DNA of 64,000 nt. Source: Thermoplasmatota archaeon. GTDB taxonomy: Archaea > Thermoplasmatota > Thermoplasmata > UBA10834. This document shows positions 36,371-48,455 of this stretch, piece by piece. A program made the translations under genes and the position numbers. The stretch is taken from NCBI GenBank assembly GCA_018818785.1, contig JAHIRF010000005.1, positions 1 through 64,000 on the forward strand. Reading direction: 5' to 3'. Positions within the stretch are counted from its first letter, which is position 1. Every line of letters begins with the position of its first letter. A model generated the notes under the pieces. The model saw nothing but the letters and a program-made list of their open reading frames with translations. It searched no databases and had not been told where the DNA came from.

Positions 36371-37084
36371 TCAAGTGCTGAGCAACGGGCCCAGCACCTG
36401 CATCCCGGAGTTGTTGACTTCGATGGCGTGCTTCTCCATGCTGTGCTCCGCGGCCCTCATCTTCTCGACCTGGAGGTATCTCACCAGCTTACCCCTCTGG
36501 CGGTCAAGGCCCAGCATCACGATGCCGTCTGCGAGAAAGCCTTCGTTTCCGAGAAGCTGCGACTCACCTGTCAACGACCGTTCCATGATAATGAATGATG
36601 TGAGGTTGTTGTCCCTTAGCATCTTGAAGAAATAGAACATCTTCTTCCTCATGTCCTCCGCGTTCTCCATCAGGGAGTAAAGCGCGCCCAGCGAGTCGAG
36701 GACGAATATCGAGAACTTGTCCCCATGGGTCCTCCTGAAACGCTGTATCATCTTCTCAATGAAGAGCACGTAATCCGTCTGTGCCGAATCGCCGATGACC
36801 TCGTCGATCTGGTCGATCTCCCTGAGGTCGGTCATATCCGATATCTGCATCTTCGCGGAGAGCTTCACACCCATGCTCTCCATGTTCTTCAGGTGACTGT
36901 CGACCGTCTCTTCGAGAGTGGCGTAGAGGCCGAACTCGTTCTTATCTCTCAGGTAGTGCGACATCAGAGAATAGCAGAAGCTCGTCTTCATCGATCCTGG
37001 AGGACCGGTGACGAGTATGACTTTGGGCCTCTCGATGTCGTTCTTGAAAACCTTTTCCAGACCTTGTATCGAGTCTCTAAACAA
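36371..37084 (-). CDS. KaiC-like RecA-fold ATPase
   Basis: 237 residues, a single KaiC/GvpD-type RecA domain. Start TTG at 37084 preceded by GGGAGGG. Motifs intact: Walker A VTGPPGSMKTSF (about 26-37), Glu in the ATLEETVDSHLKNM region and Walker B FVLDSLGAL. The C-terminal part has KLVRYLQVEKMRAAEHSM, typical of the archaeal KaiC-like family, which is related to FlaH of archaella. Gene order on the minus strand is this gene, then the coiled-coil/zinc-ribbon gene. A cyanobacterial-type clock role is not implied; the family is signalling or motility related. A TATA box (CCTTTATTAG, 37145-37155 minus) is upstream. Confidence 0.85.
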   Translation of the reverse strand: MFRDSIQGLEKVFKNDIERPKVILVTGPPGSMKTSFCYSLMSHYLRDKNEFGLYATLEETVDSHLKNMESMGVKLSAKMQISDMTDLREIDQIDEVIGDSAQTDYVLFIEKMIQRFRRTHGDKFSIFVLDSLGALYSLMENAEDMRKKMFYFFKMLRDNNLTSFIIMERSLTGESQLLGNEGFLADGIVMLGLDRQRGKLVRYLQVEKMRAAEHSMEKHAIEVNNSGMQVLGPLLST

Positions 37085-37211
37085 AGTGCAGCCCTCCCTG
37101 TTCGAGCGAGTCGGACTCCTCTGCGGATTTCAATAGATTGTCTACTAATAAAGGTTTGCGGGTCGTTATCAAGAGTGAGACGCGGGCCAGATGGTAGAAA
37201 AATCCACCTGG

Positions 37212-39794
<2,583 letters not shown>

Positions 39795-39804
39795 GAGTGA
39801 TCAC

Positions 39805-42110
<2,306 letters not shown>

Positions 42111-43376
42111 ATGGCGACTAGAAAGAAGATCAATTCTCCACTGGAAATGAAGGGGGTCTGCAGAGCGGAAAGAATCGCGCCAGACAAGTTGACCAGATTG
42201 TTCGAAGACGGGAGAGTGGTGATCCCATCCAACCCAAGACATAAGAACCTCCGACCGAGAGCCATCGGTGAAGGGTTGACGGTCAAAGTCAACGCGAATA
42301 TAGGCACCTCCAAGGACAGAATCGATCTGCCCGAGGAGCTGGAGAAGGTCAGGGTCGCTCTGCGATATGGTGCTGATGCGGTGATGGATCTCAGCACTGG
42401 AGGAGACCTTCATGAAATAAGGAAGAAGGTCATCGGATTGTGCGACGCTCCGGTGGGGACCGTCCCGATCTACGAGGCAATATGTAGGACATCGAAATCT
42501 GGCGGACCGATGTCGATGACCAGCGACGATCTTTTCAAAACCATCGAAAAGCATGCGAAGGATGGTGTCGATTTCATGACCGTGCACTGCGGCATAACCA
42601 AAGAGACGGTTTCCACGTTGAGAAGCCACAAGAGGCTGACTGGCGTCGTATCCAGAGGAGGGGCGATCCTTGTCGCATGGATGCACGAGAACGATCGGGA
42701 TAACCCCCTCTACGAGGAATACGATTACCTCCTGGAGATGGCAAGGGAACATGGCTTCGCGCTGAGCCTGGGGGATGGACTGAGACCGGGGTCGACCGCC
42801 GATGCCACCGATGGACCGCAACTTCATGAGCTGATCGTCCTCGGGAAACTCGTCGAGAGAGCGCGTGCAGCCGGCGTCCAGGCCATGGTCGAAGGGCCCG
42901 GACATGTGCCTCTGAACCAGATAGAGGCGAATGTCGTGGCGGAGAAGACCATCTGCAAGGGAGCGCCGTTCTATGTCCTTGGGCCGATCGTTTGCGATGT
43001 GGCTGCAGGCTATGATCATATCGCCGGAGCGATCGGTGGAGCCTTGGCCGCGTATCACGGTGCGGACTTCCTCTGCTACGTCACCCCGTCGGAACACCTT
43101 TCACTGCCGACCGTCGACGATGTCAGGGAAGGTGTCATCGCGAGCAAGATAGCGGCCCATTCGGCCGACCTCGCAAGAGGCAGGGGTGGCGACAAGGATC
43201 GGAAGATGTCATGTGCCAGGAAGGCTTTCGATTGGGACACCATGTTCGAACTGTCGTTCAATCCCGAGAAGGCAAGGACTTACAGAGACCGTCGCAAGTC
43301 GAAGAGCCCCGATGTCTGTTCGATGTGCGGAGATCTCTGCGCGATGAGGATGGTAGACAAGCTCCTAGACGAATGA
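42111..43376 (+). CDS. thiC: Phosphomethylpyrimidine synthase
   Basis: 421 residues. A radical-SAM enzyme with an unusual C-terminal cluster that converts aminoimidazole ribotide to HMP-phosphate in thiamine synthesis. Motifs are RHKNLRPRAIGEGLTVKVNANIG, ADAVMDLSTGGDL, PVGTVPIYEA, MTVHCGIT, SRGGAILVAWM, SLGDGLRPGS, MVEGPGHVPLNQI, and ALAAYHGADFLCYVTPSEHL. The C-terminal CSMCGDLCAMR gives the CxxCxxxxC cluster ligands. Length is that of archaeal ThiC, without the bacterial N-terminal extension. The TATA box is 31-39 bases upstream, so the transcript is nearly leaderless. No other thiamine genes are in the window. Confidence 0.97.
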   Translation: MATRKKINSPLEMKGVCRAERIAPDKLTRLFEDGRVVIPSNPRHKNLRPRAIGEGLTVKVNANIGTSKDRIDLPEELEKVRVALRYGADAVMDLSTGGDLHEIRKKVIGLCDAPVGTVPIYEAICRTSKSGGPMSMTSDDLFKTIEKHAKDGVDFMTVHCGITKETVSTLRSHKRLTGVVSRGGAILVAWMHENDRDNPLYEEYDYLLEMAREHGFALSLGDGLRPGSTADATDGPQLHELIVLGKLVERARAAGVQAMVEGPGHVPLNQIEANVVAEKTICKGAPFYVLGPIVCDVAAGYDHIAGAIGGALAAYHGADFLCYVTPSEHLSLPTVDDVREGVIASKIAAHSADLARGRGGDKDRKMSCARKAFDWDTMFELSFNPEKARTYRDRRKSKSPDVCSMCGDLCAMRMVDKLLDE

Positions 43377-44318: not shown

Positions 44319-44352
44319 ATTAGAGTTGTCACTTGGACAACGAGGGTGGACA

Positions 44353-44591: not shown

Positions 44592-46730
44592 ATGGCTAGT
44601 GATCTCCGAATCCCTGAGGGGATAATCGTAAGGACCGCCAAAGGAGGCCCTGATTCATTAAAAGGCATACTGTCGGATCTGAAACAATACAGTTTCACTG
44701 GTTACCTGAAGGTCACGCTCGAGAAGTCCGTGATGAACTCCACGGGTTACATAGTGGTGGAGCTTGGGACGCCAGTCATGGCGATCTACGAGTTTGAGAA
44801 ATCGAAACCCAGGGAGCTGCGGAGGATATACACCGGAGAGAAGTCGCTGAGATTCATACTCGAAGACTCGCAGGACAAGGAGTCCAACATCGAACTCCAC
44901 AGCCGTGTCCCCAAAGAGGAGTTCGAACGCCGGTTCCCCGATGCCTATATTGCTGGAAGAGTCGCCCCCAGACCGACCCCTAAGGCCCGAGACGAAGCGA
45001 AGGTCAAGGAAGAGACGGAGATCGACCCGTATGCGGATAAGATAGAGCAATGGCGCAGGAAGGGGTACAAGGTGGAGACTCTTGAGACGGCGAGGGAGCA
45101 AGGTGTTCAGGAGATCTCCAAGGAACTGACTGGCTTCGAGCGCGATACGAACAAGCTCAGGCAGTTCGAGACGATCCTGAACAATTTCCCGATACTCGGA
45201 CTCGAGCCGGAGATTGCTGAGATAAGGACGAAACTGAACGATCGCACTCGCATCGCGGAGATAGAATCGGACATCGAGTTCCTGCAGGAGAAGATCCGCC
45301 GCAAGATACAGAAGAGGAAGGCAGAAGAGGATTCGATAAAGCAGGAGATGGAACGTAAGAAGAGGGATGAGAAGGCGTCGGATGTATACGACTTGATCCT
45401 CAAGTACCAGACAACGCCCGATGGTGAGGAGGCAGCGAAAGGCGGGAAGTGCCCCATCTGCGGCGGGGAGATGGAAGATGGACAGTGCGGCAAGTGCGAG
45501 AAGGAGCAGAGGTTCACCAGGTCATTCACGCCAGAGATGAGGTTCGACAACTTCGTGATAGGACCGGGTTCGAAGTTCTCGGCAGCGACCGCGGTCGCGG
45601 TGGCTGAGAATCCAGGCAAGGCATACAACCCGCTACTGATATTCGGTGCGACCGGCCTGGGAAAGACACATCTTCTGTCAGCCATCGGAAACCACATACT
45701 GAACAAGAACAGAGAATTGGTCGTCCTGTACGCGCCGGCCGACAAGCTAGTCGATGCAGTCGAACACAGTGCGACTTCAGATGCCATCAAGAAGCTTAGG
45801 GAGGAGCTGAACCACGCCGAACTCCTGCTTGTCGACGACATGCAGTTCCTAGGGGCCAGTGAACAGGCTCAGGGCGAGATGGTACACATCATCGACTCGC
45901 TCATCGACTCCGGAAAGCAGGTCGTGCTTGCTAGCGACAGGCTACCCACGGCGATCCCAGGCTTCAGCGACAGGCTGAATGCCAGGATCCAGAAGGGATT
46001 GACCGTCGATCTGCTGCCGCCAGACGAGAACACCAGGGTCAAGCTCGTCAGGGTGAAGGCTCATGAGAAGAAGTTGAAGCTCAGCGATGAGATAGTCAAG
46101 TACATCGCCGAAAAGGTCACTCAGAATGTCCGTGAGATAGAGAGCACGCTGAACAAGGTCGTCGCGTTCTCTACCATAATGAAGATGGAAATAGACATGA
46201 CCCTCATCTCAGACATACTCAAGCCGCTCGCCCCCGTGCAAGAGACTAGGAAGGAGATCATGAAGGAGGTCAATATCCAGCCTGGCCATTGCTACCTGAT
46301 AGAGGAGGAGAAACCGACCTACAGCAATGTCCTGATGGAACGAATGATGGCCGAGAACTACAGAGGGCTCATAATAACGAGGATGAACCCAAAGAGGATC
46401 AGAGATGCTTTCGTAAATGACCCACGGATACTCTGGCTTACGGACAAGGATAGTTCGATAGAGAAGACGATCCCGCCATCACTGGAGATGATCATTCACA
46501 AGATCCAGGAGTTCATGTCGGAGGAGGGGAACAGCATGGTCGTCCTCGACGGCATACAATACCTTATCAGCAACACCAATTTCGATTCAGTGCTCAGGTT
46601 CCTGAGGAGCATAATCGATGAAGTGTCAGAATCGAAATGCATATTCGCAGTCTCGATAAGTCCTGAGACCATGAAGGAGCAGGAGATATCGATAATGGAG
46701 AGGGAGATGGAGGTTCTGAACCTGACCTGA
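44592..46730 (+). CDS. DnaA-type AAA+ protein with DUF4388-like N-terminus, zinc ribbon and DUF835-like C-terminus
   Basis: 712 residues from the ATG at 44592; ATGs at 44502 and 44508 are also in frame but the bases between have non-coding character, and the frame upstream of 44502 is the tRNA. Residues 1-110 resemble DUF4388 (SLKGILSDLKQYSFTGYLKV). A basic/acidic coiled region 140-280 and zinc ribbon (Cys287, 290, 299, 302) follow. The AAA+ core (about 310-555) has FDNFVIGPGSKFSAATAVAV, Walker A GATGLGKT (352-359), Walker B LLLVDD (411-416), sensor-1 LASDRLP, Arg-finger segment DRLNARIQKGL, and NVREIESTLNKV, the order and spacing of DnaA. The DnaA-box-binding domain IV is absent; residues 560-712 resemble DUF835. 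Not a proven replication initiator. Confidence 0.85.
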   Translation: MASDLRIPEGIIVRTAKGGPDSLKGILSDLKQYSFTGYLKVTLEKSVMNSTGYIVVELGTPVMAIYEFEKSKPRELRRIYTGEKSLRFILEDSQDKESNIELHSRVPKEEFERRFPDAYIAGRVAPRPTPKARDEAKVKEETEIDPYADKIEQWRRKGYKVETLETAREQGVQEISKELTGFERDTNKLRQFETILNNFPILGLEPEIAEIRTKLNDRTRIAEIESDIEFLQEKIRRKIQKRKAEEDSIKQEMERKKRDEKASDVYDLILKYQTTPDGEEAAKGGKCPICGGEMEDGQCGKCEKEQRFTRSFTPEMRFDNFVIGPGSKFSAATAVAVAENPGKAYNPLLIFGATGLGKTHLLSAIGNHILNKNRELVVLYAPADKLVDAVEHSATSDAIKKLREELNHAELLLVDDMQFLGASEQAQGEMVHIIDSLIDSGKQVVLASDRLPTAIPGFSDRLNARIQKGLTVDLLPPDENTRVKLVRVKAHEKKLKLSDEIVKYIAEKVTQNVREIESTLNKVVAFSTIMKMEIDMTLISDILKPLAPVQETRKEIMKEVNIQPGHCYLIEEEKPTYSNVLMERMMAENYRGLIITRMNPKRIRDAFVNDPRILWLTDKDSSIEKTIPPSLEMIIHKIQEFMSEEGNSMVVLDGIQYLISNTNFDSVLRFLRSIIDEVSESKCIFAVSISPETMKEQEISIMEREMEVLNLT

Positions 46731-46745
46731 CCTCATCGATCGAGG

Positions 46746-48455
46746 TCACATGGTCTTCTTCGACATCTCTTTGAATTCCCTCAGCTCTCTGAGCGCCTGC
46801 GAATAGTTCTTCGATTTCGTCAGGTTGGTCACCGACTTCAATATCGTCAGCATAGGCGTTATGTTCACGTTTCGGATCTTCGCATCGACGAGCAGGTGAC
46901 GAGCGTTCTTGATCTCTTCAGTGAGTCGCTCAGGGATGGCCGCGTTGAGGCGCTCGTTCGTCTGCGTGATGAGCATCTCGGCCTTATCGAAGTCCCTGGA
47001 ATCAAAGGCTTTGTTGGCCTCGACGAAAGATGCACGTGCCTCCCTTGTATCGAGTATGAGCATCTCGCAATCCGAAAGCAGTGATTTCAATGATTTGAGT
47101 TTCGTCTTCGCTTCGTTGTATCTGCCAGTGATCGGAAGGAGCTCGTTCGAGACCTTGGCTGAATAGATGAAGGCGGCCTCCACATCACCACTGGATTTGG
47201 CCTTCTCCATCTCGCTTATGTATGTCTTCGATCGAGATACCTCGCCGCCGAGCTCCTCGGCCACCTGGACCTCTTCCCTCAGCTGATCGAGCGTCTCGGC
47301 CAGCCTCGCATCTATTGAATCCATGAGGGACGCGCGTGCGGTGTTAACGAGCTCAAGGGCTTTCTCGAGCTGTCTCTCTCTTCCAGCTATGGCCGCGTCA
47401 TCGATGAGCTGCTTACTCTCGGATATCTCGATCTCATTCTGCATGGCGAGGGACAGGAGTGGCTTCATCTCCGCCACCATCCTCGCAAGCTCCTTCCCCT
47501 TGTCCTTCAGCTCCGCATTCATGGGAGTGGTCTTCGGGGCTGGGGTAGGTCTGGTGAACTCCGGTTCGTGTATCCTTGGCTGCGGCTCGTCCTTCAGATG
47601 GCGCAATGGCCCGGCCTCGACGTGGTCATGCTTGTCCAGAGGTTCGGGCTCTTGCTCTAGCTCCGCCTCTTCTTGGGCATCGTCCTTCTTGCGCTTCTTC
47701 AGCCAGCCGAATGGTGAGCGAGTCTTCTTCTCCTTAGGAGCAGCCTTCTCAGGCGCTTCCTCCTCATCAAAAGAGGGTTCCTCGGCATCCTCTGGTTCGA
47801 CCTCCACATTCACGATTGGAGTCTCGCTTACGGCCGGGACTTCAGCGATCGGTGGTTCGAGCTCCTGCTGAGGTTCCACTGACGCAGCCGCTTCCTCCTC
47901 GGATTCGACGAACATGGCGCCACAACCAGGGCAGGTCTTGGCGGCGACATTGACGAGCGTGTTACATGCAGGACATTGGAATACTTCTGTACCTTCGTCT
48001 GAGAAGATAACACCGCAATTCGAACAGGATGATGCGGTGATGCTCACTCTTGCGTCGCACTCTGGACATGCGAATTGGTCCTCCTGGGTGGGCTCGGTCA
48101 CTTGTGCCTTGGGAGGGACCTCTTCCTCGACAGCTGCCAGTTCCTCCGTTTCAGGATCGGCATCAGATATGGATTGCGAGAACAGCGACGCGGCAGTCGC
48201 AGCGGATTCATCTGAGACCTCTGTCTTGGGGGTCTCAGGGACCTCGGGCTCATTGCGAGGAGCTGATAAGACCTCGCGAACCATCGTATCGATTGATTTC
48301 TTTGGAGCCGGAGCGCTAGGCATGGGCTGAACAGGCTCTTCGACATCCATATCGAATATGGACAAATCTGTCCCACAGAACCCGCACTTCTTCGATCCGG
48401 GCTGGAGTGGAGAATCGCAGATGGGGCAAAGTTTGTCCCCGCTAGAATTTGGCAA
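46746..48455 (-). CDS. Multi-zinc-ribbon, coiled-coil protein
   Basis: 569 residues. Start TTG at 48455 preceded by AGGAGG. It opens with a four-cysteine ribbon (CPIC at 10-13, CGFCG at 24-28), has an acidic linker, then two more ribbons (CPECDARVSITASSCSNCG and CPACNTLVNVAAKTCPGCG). A long acidic/proline-rich linker is followed from about 325 by a helical region with a coiled-coil pattern (KGKELARMVAEMKPLLSLAMQ to the end). The helical part has repeated spacing resembling tandem helical hairpins (NTARASLMDSIDARLAETL, MEKAKSSGDVEAAFIYSAKV). It is convergent with the DnaA-like gene, 15 bases away. Function unknown; adaptor or scaffold is an inference. Confidence 0.75.
   Translation of the reverse strand: MPNSSGDKLCPICDSPLQPGSKKCGFCGTDLSIFDMDVEEPVQPMPSAPAPKKSIDTMVREVLSAPRNEPEVPETPKTEVSDESAATAASLFSQSISDADPETEELAAVEEEVPPKAQVTEPTQEDQFACPECDARVSITASSCSNCGVIFSDEGTEVFQCPACNTLVNVAAKTCPGCGAMFVESEEEAAASVEPQQELEPPIAEVPAVSETPIVNVEVEPEDAEEPSFDEEEAPEKAAPKEKKTRSPFGWLKKRKKDDAQEEAELEQEPEPLDKHDHVEAGPLRHLKDEPQPRIHEPEFTRPTPAPKTTPMNAELKDKGKELARMVAEMKPLLSLAMQNEIEISESKQLIDDAAIAGRERQLEKALELVNTARASLMDSIDARLAETLDQLREEVQVAEELGGEVSRSKTYISEMEKAKSSGDVEAAFIYSAKVSNELLPITGRYNEAKTKLKSLKSLLSDCEMLILDTREARASFVEANKAFDSRDFDKAEMLITQTNERLNAAIPERLTEEIKNARHLLVDAKIRNVNITPMLTILKSVTNLTKSKNYSQALRELREFKEMSKKTM

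Follow-up and report, generated by a model that had tools for sequence, protein, structure and literature searches.

Many Thermoplasmatota archaea have multi-domain proteins in which the DnaA engine looks like a replication part that has been reused as a regulatory switch, because they lack a DNA-reading part and have KaiC-type signalling neighbours. The protein analysed here is encoded at 44592..46730 of the window (the whole stretch of DNA analysed, 64,000 nucleotides from a Thermoplasmatota contig). The preferred reading, held tentatively and with a probability somewhat short of even, is that such proteins form a non-initiator branch of the DnaA family across the Thermoplasmatota, and act as an ATP-controlled assembly switch in a KaiC-linked regulatory complex. 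The gene and its parts are as follows.

44592..46730, plus strand: whole gene, 712 aa, with N-domain, coiled coil, zinc ribbon, DnaA-type AAA+ core and DUF835 (ORF, Pfam, orthologues, model)
44592..44933, plus strand: N-terminal alpha/beta domain, residues 1-114, weakly DUF2226/DUF4388-like
45024..45416, plus strand: coiled coil, residues 145-275, motif W..kGY.v..Le (model helices and relatives' sequences)
45450..45497, plus strand: zinc ribbon CPICGGEMEDGQCGKC, residues 287-302 (sequence, alignment)
45519..46229, plus strand: DnaA-type AAA+ core and lid, residues 310-546 (PF00308; model against DnaA domain III)
45645..45668, plus strand: Walker A GATGLGKT, residues 352-359 (alignment)
45822..45848, plus strand: Walker B LLLVDDMQF, residues 411-419 (alignment)
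45966..45989, plus strand: Arg-finger (box VII) segment SDRLNARI, residues 459-466, with the arginine at the E. coli R285 position retained
46125..46145, plus strand: sensor 2 NVREIES, residues 512-518, with the arginine at the E. coli R334 position retained
46269..46727, plus strand: C-terminal DUF835, where DnaA has domain IV (PF05763; inactivated KaiC fold, no P-loop)

The gene starts with the ATG at 44592, and the orthologues begin at the same residue (MxxDLRIPEG); they do not share a longer reading from the GTG at 44346. Two further core motifs, FDNFVIG and the sensor 1 motif LASDRLP, lie at residues 318-324 and 446-452, and every motif quoted in the initial annotation for a DnaA-type order is present at the coordinates given here. 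A zinc ribbon before the core had also been claimed; there is a single one in the 712-aa protein, and it is missing from several other families. The proposed DUF4388-like N-domain fares less well. Among 31 N-domains tested, DUF4388 (PF14332) matches two (best 5.3e-4) and the archaeal family DUF2226 matches nine (best 3.4e-4); the present N-domain's own match is to DUF2226 (E 0.032, under the curated cut-off). Taken alone (model pLDDT 85), this domain has no clear fold match in the PDB, the best values being a VIA Z of 6.0 and a Foldseek E of 0.06, and its fold assignment is therefore withheld.

The C-terminal domain matches DUF835 (PF05763, residues 574-706, E 2.1e-28, 99.3 bits against a gathering cut-off of 33.1; Pfam) and not PF06745, which bears out the DUF835-like segment described initially. 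A sequence scan of residues 560-712 found no GxxGxGK[ST] P-loop. DUF835 has been described as an inactivated KaiC (iKaiC) domain that serves as the output of response regulators (PMC5847659).

The AAA+ core is DnaA domain III, as had been claimed, and not DnaC, Hda or Orc1, by profiles, PDB sequences and the structural model alike. PF00308 (Bac_DnaA) matches residues 315-473 with E 3.7e-50 (Pfam). TIGR00362 (DnaA) matches with E 4.6e-82 and 276 bits, under an equivalog cut-off of 343.9 bits, in a model that also spans the DnaA domains missing here (NCBIfam). The Hda model TIGR03420 gives 94.8 bits against a cut-off of 194.8 and the remaining Hda models give less, while the DnaC, DnaI and IstB models reach about 29-53 bits against the 276 for DnaA, and their PDB matches are far weaker too. 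The nearest PDB sequences are the DnaAs of B. subtilis, T. maritima and A. aeolicus. An AlphaFold model was built on a 36-row alignment (mean pLDDT 88; pTM 0.55, so that the placement of domains relative to one another is unreliable). Compared with DnaA domain III, its residues 310-546 reach Z 31.9 and an rmsd of 1.6 A over 237 residues at 40% identity; Hda gives Z 22, 4.8 A and 14% identity, and archaeal Orc1 gives Z about 17. Therefore the core is DnaA-type, beyond a plain AAA+ fold. An Orc1/Cdc6 identity (TIGR02928, Orc1-type core) was not found; PF00308 and the DnaA structures win by a wide margin.

The functional residues were compared by alignment to E. coli DnaA in four members of the same family (f1), in relatives and in 36 bacterial sequences. 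Walker A and B, sensor 1, R281, R285 and R334 are retained in the four f1 members and in most relatives. The Walker A lysine is retained in all sequences compared, and hardly any of them have changed Walker B aspartates or a changed sensor 2; 5 of 35 class members carry K, L or C in place of the Arg-finger arginine. Two positions, V211 and K243 of E. coli DnaA, are ssDNA contacts (initiator-specific motif, ISM). The former is G/E/E/D in f1 and I or V in 36/36 bacterial sequences, the latter S/N/S/S in f1 and K or R in 36/36, and both are partly retained in families other than f1. The pattern in f1 fits an ATP-dependent assembly machine that has given up ssDNA.

Neither domain IV (PF08299) nor DnaA domain I was found in the protein by Pfam, in the case of a DnaA N-domain up to E 1. 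Across the phylum, domain IV rises above the cut-off in 0 of 282 Thermoplasmatota genomes, and 10 of 10 bacterial controls pass. The claimed absence of domain IV therefore holds, no archaeal homologue with it having been found, and of the two outcomes named earlier as contrary, a core nearer to DnaC or another AAA+ clade and homologues with domain IV, neither occurred. Orc1/Cdc6 is encoded in 40 of 40 relatives, as genes separate from the DnaA-core gene, and because it is universal in the relatives, the claim that the protein does not serve initiation is very likely right. Initiation by the DnaA-core protein is, in other words, very unlikely. A second, origin-reading initiator acquired from bacteria could be argued from the full domain III with its ATP-switch residues and from the nearby gyrB-gyrA, an arrangement reminiscent of that at bacterial oriC (dnaA-dnaN-recF-gyrB in E. 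coli), a region from which dnaA and gyrBA might have been transferred together. This explanation is nevertheless strongly disfavoured, to the point of having almost no probability, by the phylum-wide count for domain IV, the unmatched domain I, the Orc1/Cdc6 genes in all relatives and the existence of living lineages that have lost the AAA+ part.

With the core profile at E <= 1e-30, the core is found in 119 of 400 genomes of the class (genome G044, see below, remains inside this tally), in 50 of 192 good genomes and in 48 of 105 genera; the orthologous DUF835 is found in 127 of 400 class genomes at E <= 1e-42. No core match came from the f6, f10 and f18 genomes in the sample, many of which are close to complete; in f14 and f25 the core has diverged strongly. 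The mcrA gene is present in families f20 and f29. The fusion expected in sister genomes is borne out, the core being carried in the class with the same architecture, and the core is old, as had been suggested. Three genes, L239, L240 (G044) and L252 (G625), were considered as archaeal DnaA forms and rejected; they look like ordinary bacterial DnaA and are probably contamination. As read from their sequences, L240 and L252 show a bacterial-type domain I, and L252 also a domain IV; G625 is still counted in the phylum tally. Genes from phage and plasmid records that match the core were likewise set aside as bacterial DnaAs.

The tree with bacterial DnaA that had been called for places 32 archaeal cores and 35 bacterial DnaAs from many phyla on opposite sides of one branch (99/95). 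Since this tree is unrooted and its bacterial sequences were picked for their likeness to the query, it is compatible with an early split as well as with an ancient transfer. A tree that included DnaC, Hda and other distant outgroups was rejected, because long branches scattered the archaeal cores; it was rebuilt without them, and so without a root. When cores of other classes were added, the quick tree did not unite the archaeal cores. A constrained tree uniting them scored 41 log-likelihood units higher (p-AU 0.966), and a single origin of the archaeal cores is thus allowed, not proven. The core-fused DUF835 domains of the different classes group in a single clade (99/99).

In f16 and part of f20 there are forms of about 340-460 aa that have the N-domain and DUF835 but no AAA+ core; they occupy two separate places in the DUF835 tree. 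With an ancestral core, which the clade structure suggests, the class would have lost it at least twice; the N-domain, DUF835 and the neighbours stayed where the AAA+ part was lost. These losses, together with the strong divergence in f14 and f25, might indicate that the AAA+ core is a structural relic in a DUF835-based protein. That explanation is very improbable, given the Walker A lysine in every sequence compared, the near-universal Walker B aspartates and sensor 2, and the retention of the core across dozens of genera.

Relatives in other classes of the phylum surround the core with different modules. The N-domain is common to the long relatives, and the coiled-coil motif W..kGY.v..Le is present there in many repeat copies. 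The N-domain, many coiled-coil repeats, the core and C-terminal zinc ribbons make up L246, L249 and L259; N-domain, repeats, core and DUF835 make up L254, L255 and L264. In L246, L249 and L259 the tandem coiled-coil repeats between N-domain and core are about 80-100 aa long with the motif W..eGY, and no Pfam repeat family was found for those of L246 and L249. Short proteins (L251, L253, L261, L262 and others) have an N-terminus, MGLFDWFKKGRKGKKK, which judged by its residues resembles an amphipathic, basic membrane anchor. L250 appears to join a signal peptide, an FN3-like domain and a TM segment to the core, and L263 is a RING-like zinc-finger form with the core. The initial statement that DUF835 replaced domain IV therefore describes one ending among several, since the other-class relatives end in zinc ribbons or a short tail.

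DUF835 is not confined to the DnaA-core protein. In the same genome it is also fused to multi-TM proteins, to a long coiled coil and, as read from the sequence, to isoleucyl-tRNA synthetase. The same reading suggests a C-terminal DUF835 on this synthetase in several Thermoplasmatota (L270, at G000:C9:138467; L268; L271), and that of G034 seems to carry zinc ribbons besides its C-terminal DUF835. In L274 and L285 (G000:C9:204500-209500) a DUF835 gene adjoins the gene of a TadC-like pilus/archaellum membrane protein. In f1, f2 and f15 the second orc1/cdc6 has a stand-alone DUF835 gene immediately after it, and in f9 the gene right after orc1 is a gcvT-like one instead (L121:4906-6713, L143, L150, L127). 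The orc1-adjacent DUF835 was tried as the closest relative of the core-fused DUF835 and rejected, as it falls among other paralogues. Within f1 the DnaA-core gene lies about 42-48 kb from the main orc1. GC skew over 40 windows of 20 kb in a single-contig relative gave no clear signal of a replication origin.

The following neighbours of the gene in the window bear on its function; gene neighbourhood shows association, not contact.

36371..37084, minus strand: KaiC-family ATPase gene (PF06745, 8.1e-34)
37212..41742, minus strand: gyrA and gyrB (Pfam), syntenic with the DnaA-core gene
42111..43376, plus strand: thiC (Pfam), syntenic neighbour
46746..48455, minus strand: partner gene with zinc ribbons and a helical domain, 569 aa, tail-to-tail with the DnaA-core gene (Pfam zinc ribbons)

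Among the matches listed, the partner gene is adjacent in 88 of the 124 genomes with a DUF835 orthologue and convergent in all 88, the median gap between the matches being 24 bp. It is retained beside the short AAA-less forms, and is not adjacent in f7, f9, f14 and f25. In L331 the gene after the AAA gene consists of a partner-like helical region fused to DUF835, which links the parts. A homologue of the KaiC-family ATPase adjoins the partner gene in f12, f15, f17, f19 and f21, and in f52 another KaiC-family ATPase comes after the FN3-TM-AAA gene. Part of this adjacency may be incidental, given how common KaiC-type genes are in archaea. At L332:8454-11953 a gene row encodes an FN3-TM-DnaA core, a KaiC-type ATPase and a 7TM (HisKA_7TM)-DUF835 protein, and looks like a membrane signalling operon. 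In the window itself the KaiC-type ATPase gene directly adjoins gyrA-gyrB on the same strand (36371-41742).

Other neighbours point to DNA, namely gyrA/gyrB and RadB. Synteny of thiC and gyrB, and of gyrA in loci long enough to include it, is seen in the taxonomic order to which the present genome belongs and in the mcrA-bearing (Methanomassiliicoccales-like) families. No gyrase genes were found near the DnaA-core gene in f12, f15 and f17; in the short-form f20 genomes the gyrase synteny stays. RadB was seen directly after the AAA-DUF835 gene in two families only, f40 and f50, and an OGG-type glycosylase gene lies nearby in f1. Because of the gyrase and RadB synteny, replication or repair regulation by protein contact is the main rival, and such a role is possible.

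For replication, the protein would be an ATPase of DnaA type which targets Orc1/Cdc6, gyrase or the replisome, much as Hda targets DnaA, and does not itself read DNA. The gyrase synteny, the distance to the main orc1 in f1, the zinc ribbon, and the separate DUF835 gene after the second orc1 in three families agree with this. It is nevertheless rather unlikely, because no gyrase genes were found nearby in three families, the fused DUF835 has closer relatives than the one beside orc1, the AAA+ core disappeared on two or more occasions with gyrase synteny persisting in f20, some relatives are of membrane type, and the GC skew showed no origin. For repair, an accessory ATPase would load or clear RadB/RadA on DNA, with the KaiC-type neighbours as further RecA-fold partners. 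The RadB and glycosylase genes agree with it; the restriction of RadB adjacency to two families, the loss of the tested ssDNA-contact positions in f1 and the membrane-type N-termini of other relatives make it improbable.

The assembly switch is preferred as the simplest reading of a DnaA engine placed between a coiled coil and DUF835, beside partner and KaiC-type genes. The mechanism that we infer from the observed fold, residues, distribution and gene order would run as follows. On binding ATP the AAA+ cores would form a DnaA-like head-to-tail stack, in which each Arg finger would sense the nucleotide of the neighbouring subunit. The stack would cluster the N-domains, coiled coils and DUF835 domains, and this clustering would gather or release the zinc-ribbon/helical partner and the KaiC-type ATPase; ATP hydrolysis would then reset the stack. 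The output would be regulatory and not origin melting: the protein would signal or act as a scaffold, in other classes possibly at the membrane. The membrane-type N-termini and the apparent FN3-TM form in relatives support such a switch. Against it count the gyrA/gyrB synteny, RadB in f40 and f50, the partial retention of the ssDNA-contact positions outside f1, the Arg-finger substitutions in 5 of 35 members and the four families in which the partner is not adjacent. The KaiC neighbours and the presence of DUF835 on membrane proteins lend contextual support to the putative signalling role proposed initially. A bolder version, unlikely on balance, holds that this is an ancient DnaA branch which split beside all bacterial DnaAs, with no recent transfer from one bacterial group, and whose members now would be membrane- and KaiC-linked assembly switches for cell regulation and not for origin opening.

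Among known systems, the core shares with bacterial DnaA domain III (B. subtilis 8bv3/8btg, T. maritima 2z4r, A. aeolicus 1l8q) the AAA+ fold with its lid and all ATP-switch motifs in order. Unlike bacterial DnaA, the protein is without domains I and IV, has changed ssDNA-contact residues in f1 (at the positions tested) and other flanking domains, and belongs to a clade separate from the bacterial sequences compared. Hda is likewise a DnaA-type AAA+ without domain IV, and a regulator, not an initiator; it is, however, without DUF835, coiled coil or zinc ribbon, and the protein scores far under cut-off with its models, the structural match having 14% identity. The C-terminal domain is shared with archaeal DUF835/inactivated-KaiC signalling proteins, but here it is fused to a DnaA-family ATPase core and forms its own clade. 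DnaC, DnaI and IstB belong to a related AAA+ clade with weak matches, their scores far below those of DnaA. Orc1/Cdc6 shares the initiator-type AAA+ fold (Z about 17), but is encoded separately in the same genomes.

The usual view assigns DnaA to bacteria as their initiator and Orc1/Cdc6 to archaea. The present protein represents an archaeal DnaA-core family, very probably a DnaA-family AAA+ outside initiator function. In the partial library searched, no paper describing such a family was found, none on DUF835 with DnaA, and none with the phrase 'archaeal DnaA'. Annotation pipelines may call such genes 'DnaA', which would mislead replication studies. A phylum-wide archaeal DnaA branch without DNA reading, in which some lineages can do without the AAA+ part, would reveal what use the DnaA assembly engine has once it is freed from origins. 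It would bear on how the bacterial and archaeal initiator ATPases diverged, and would tie KaiC-type signalling to a new partner.
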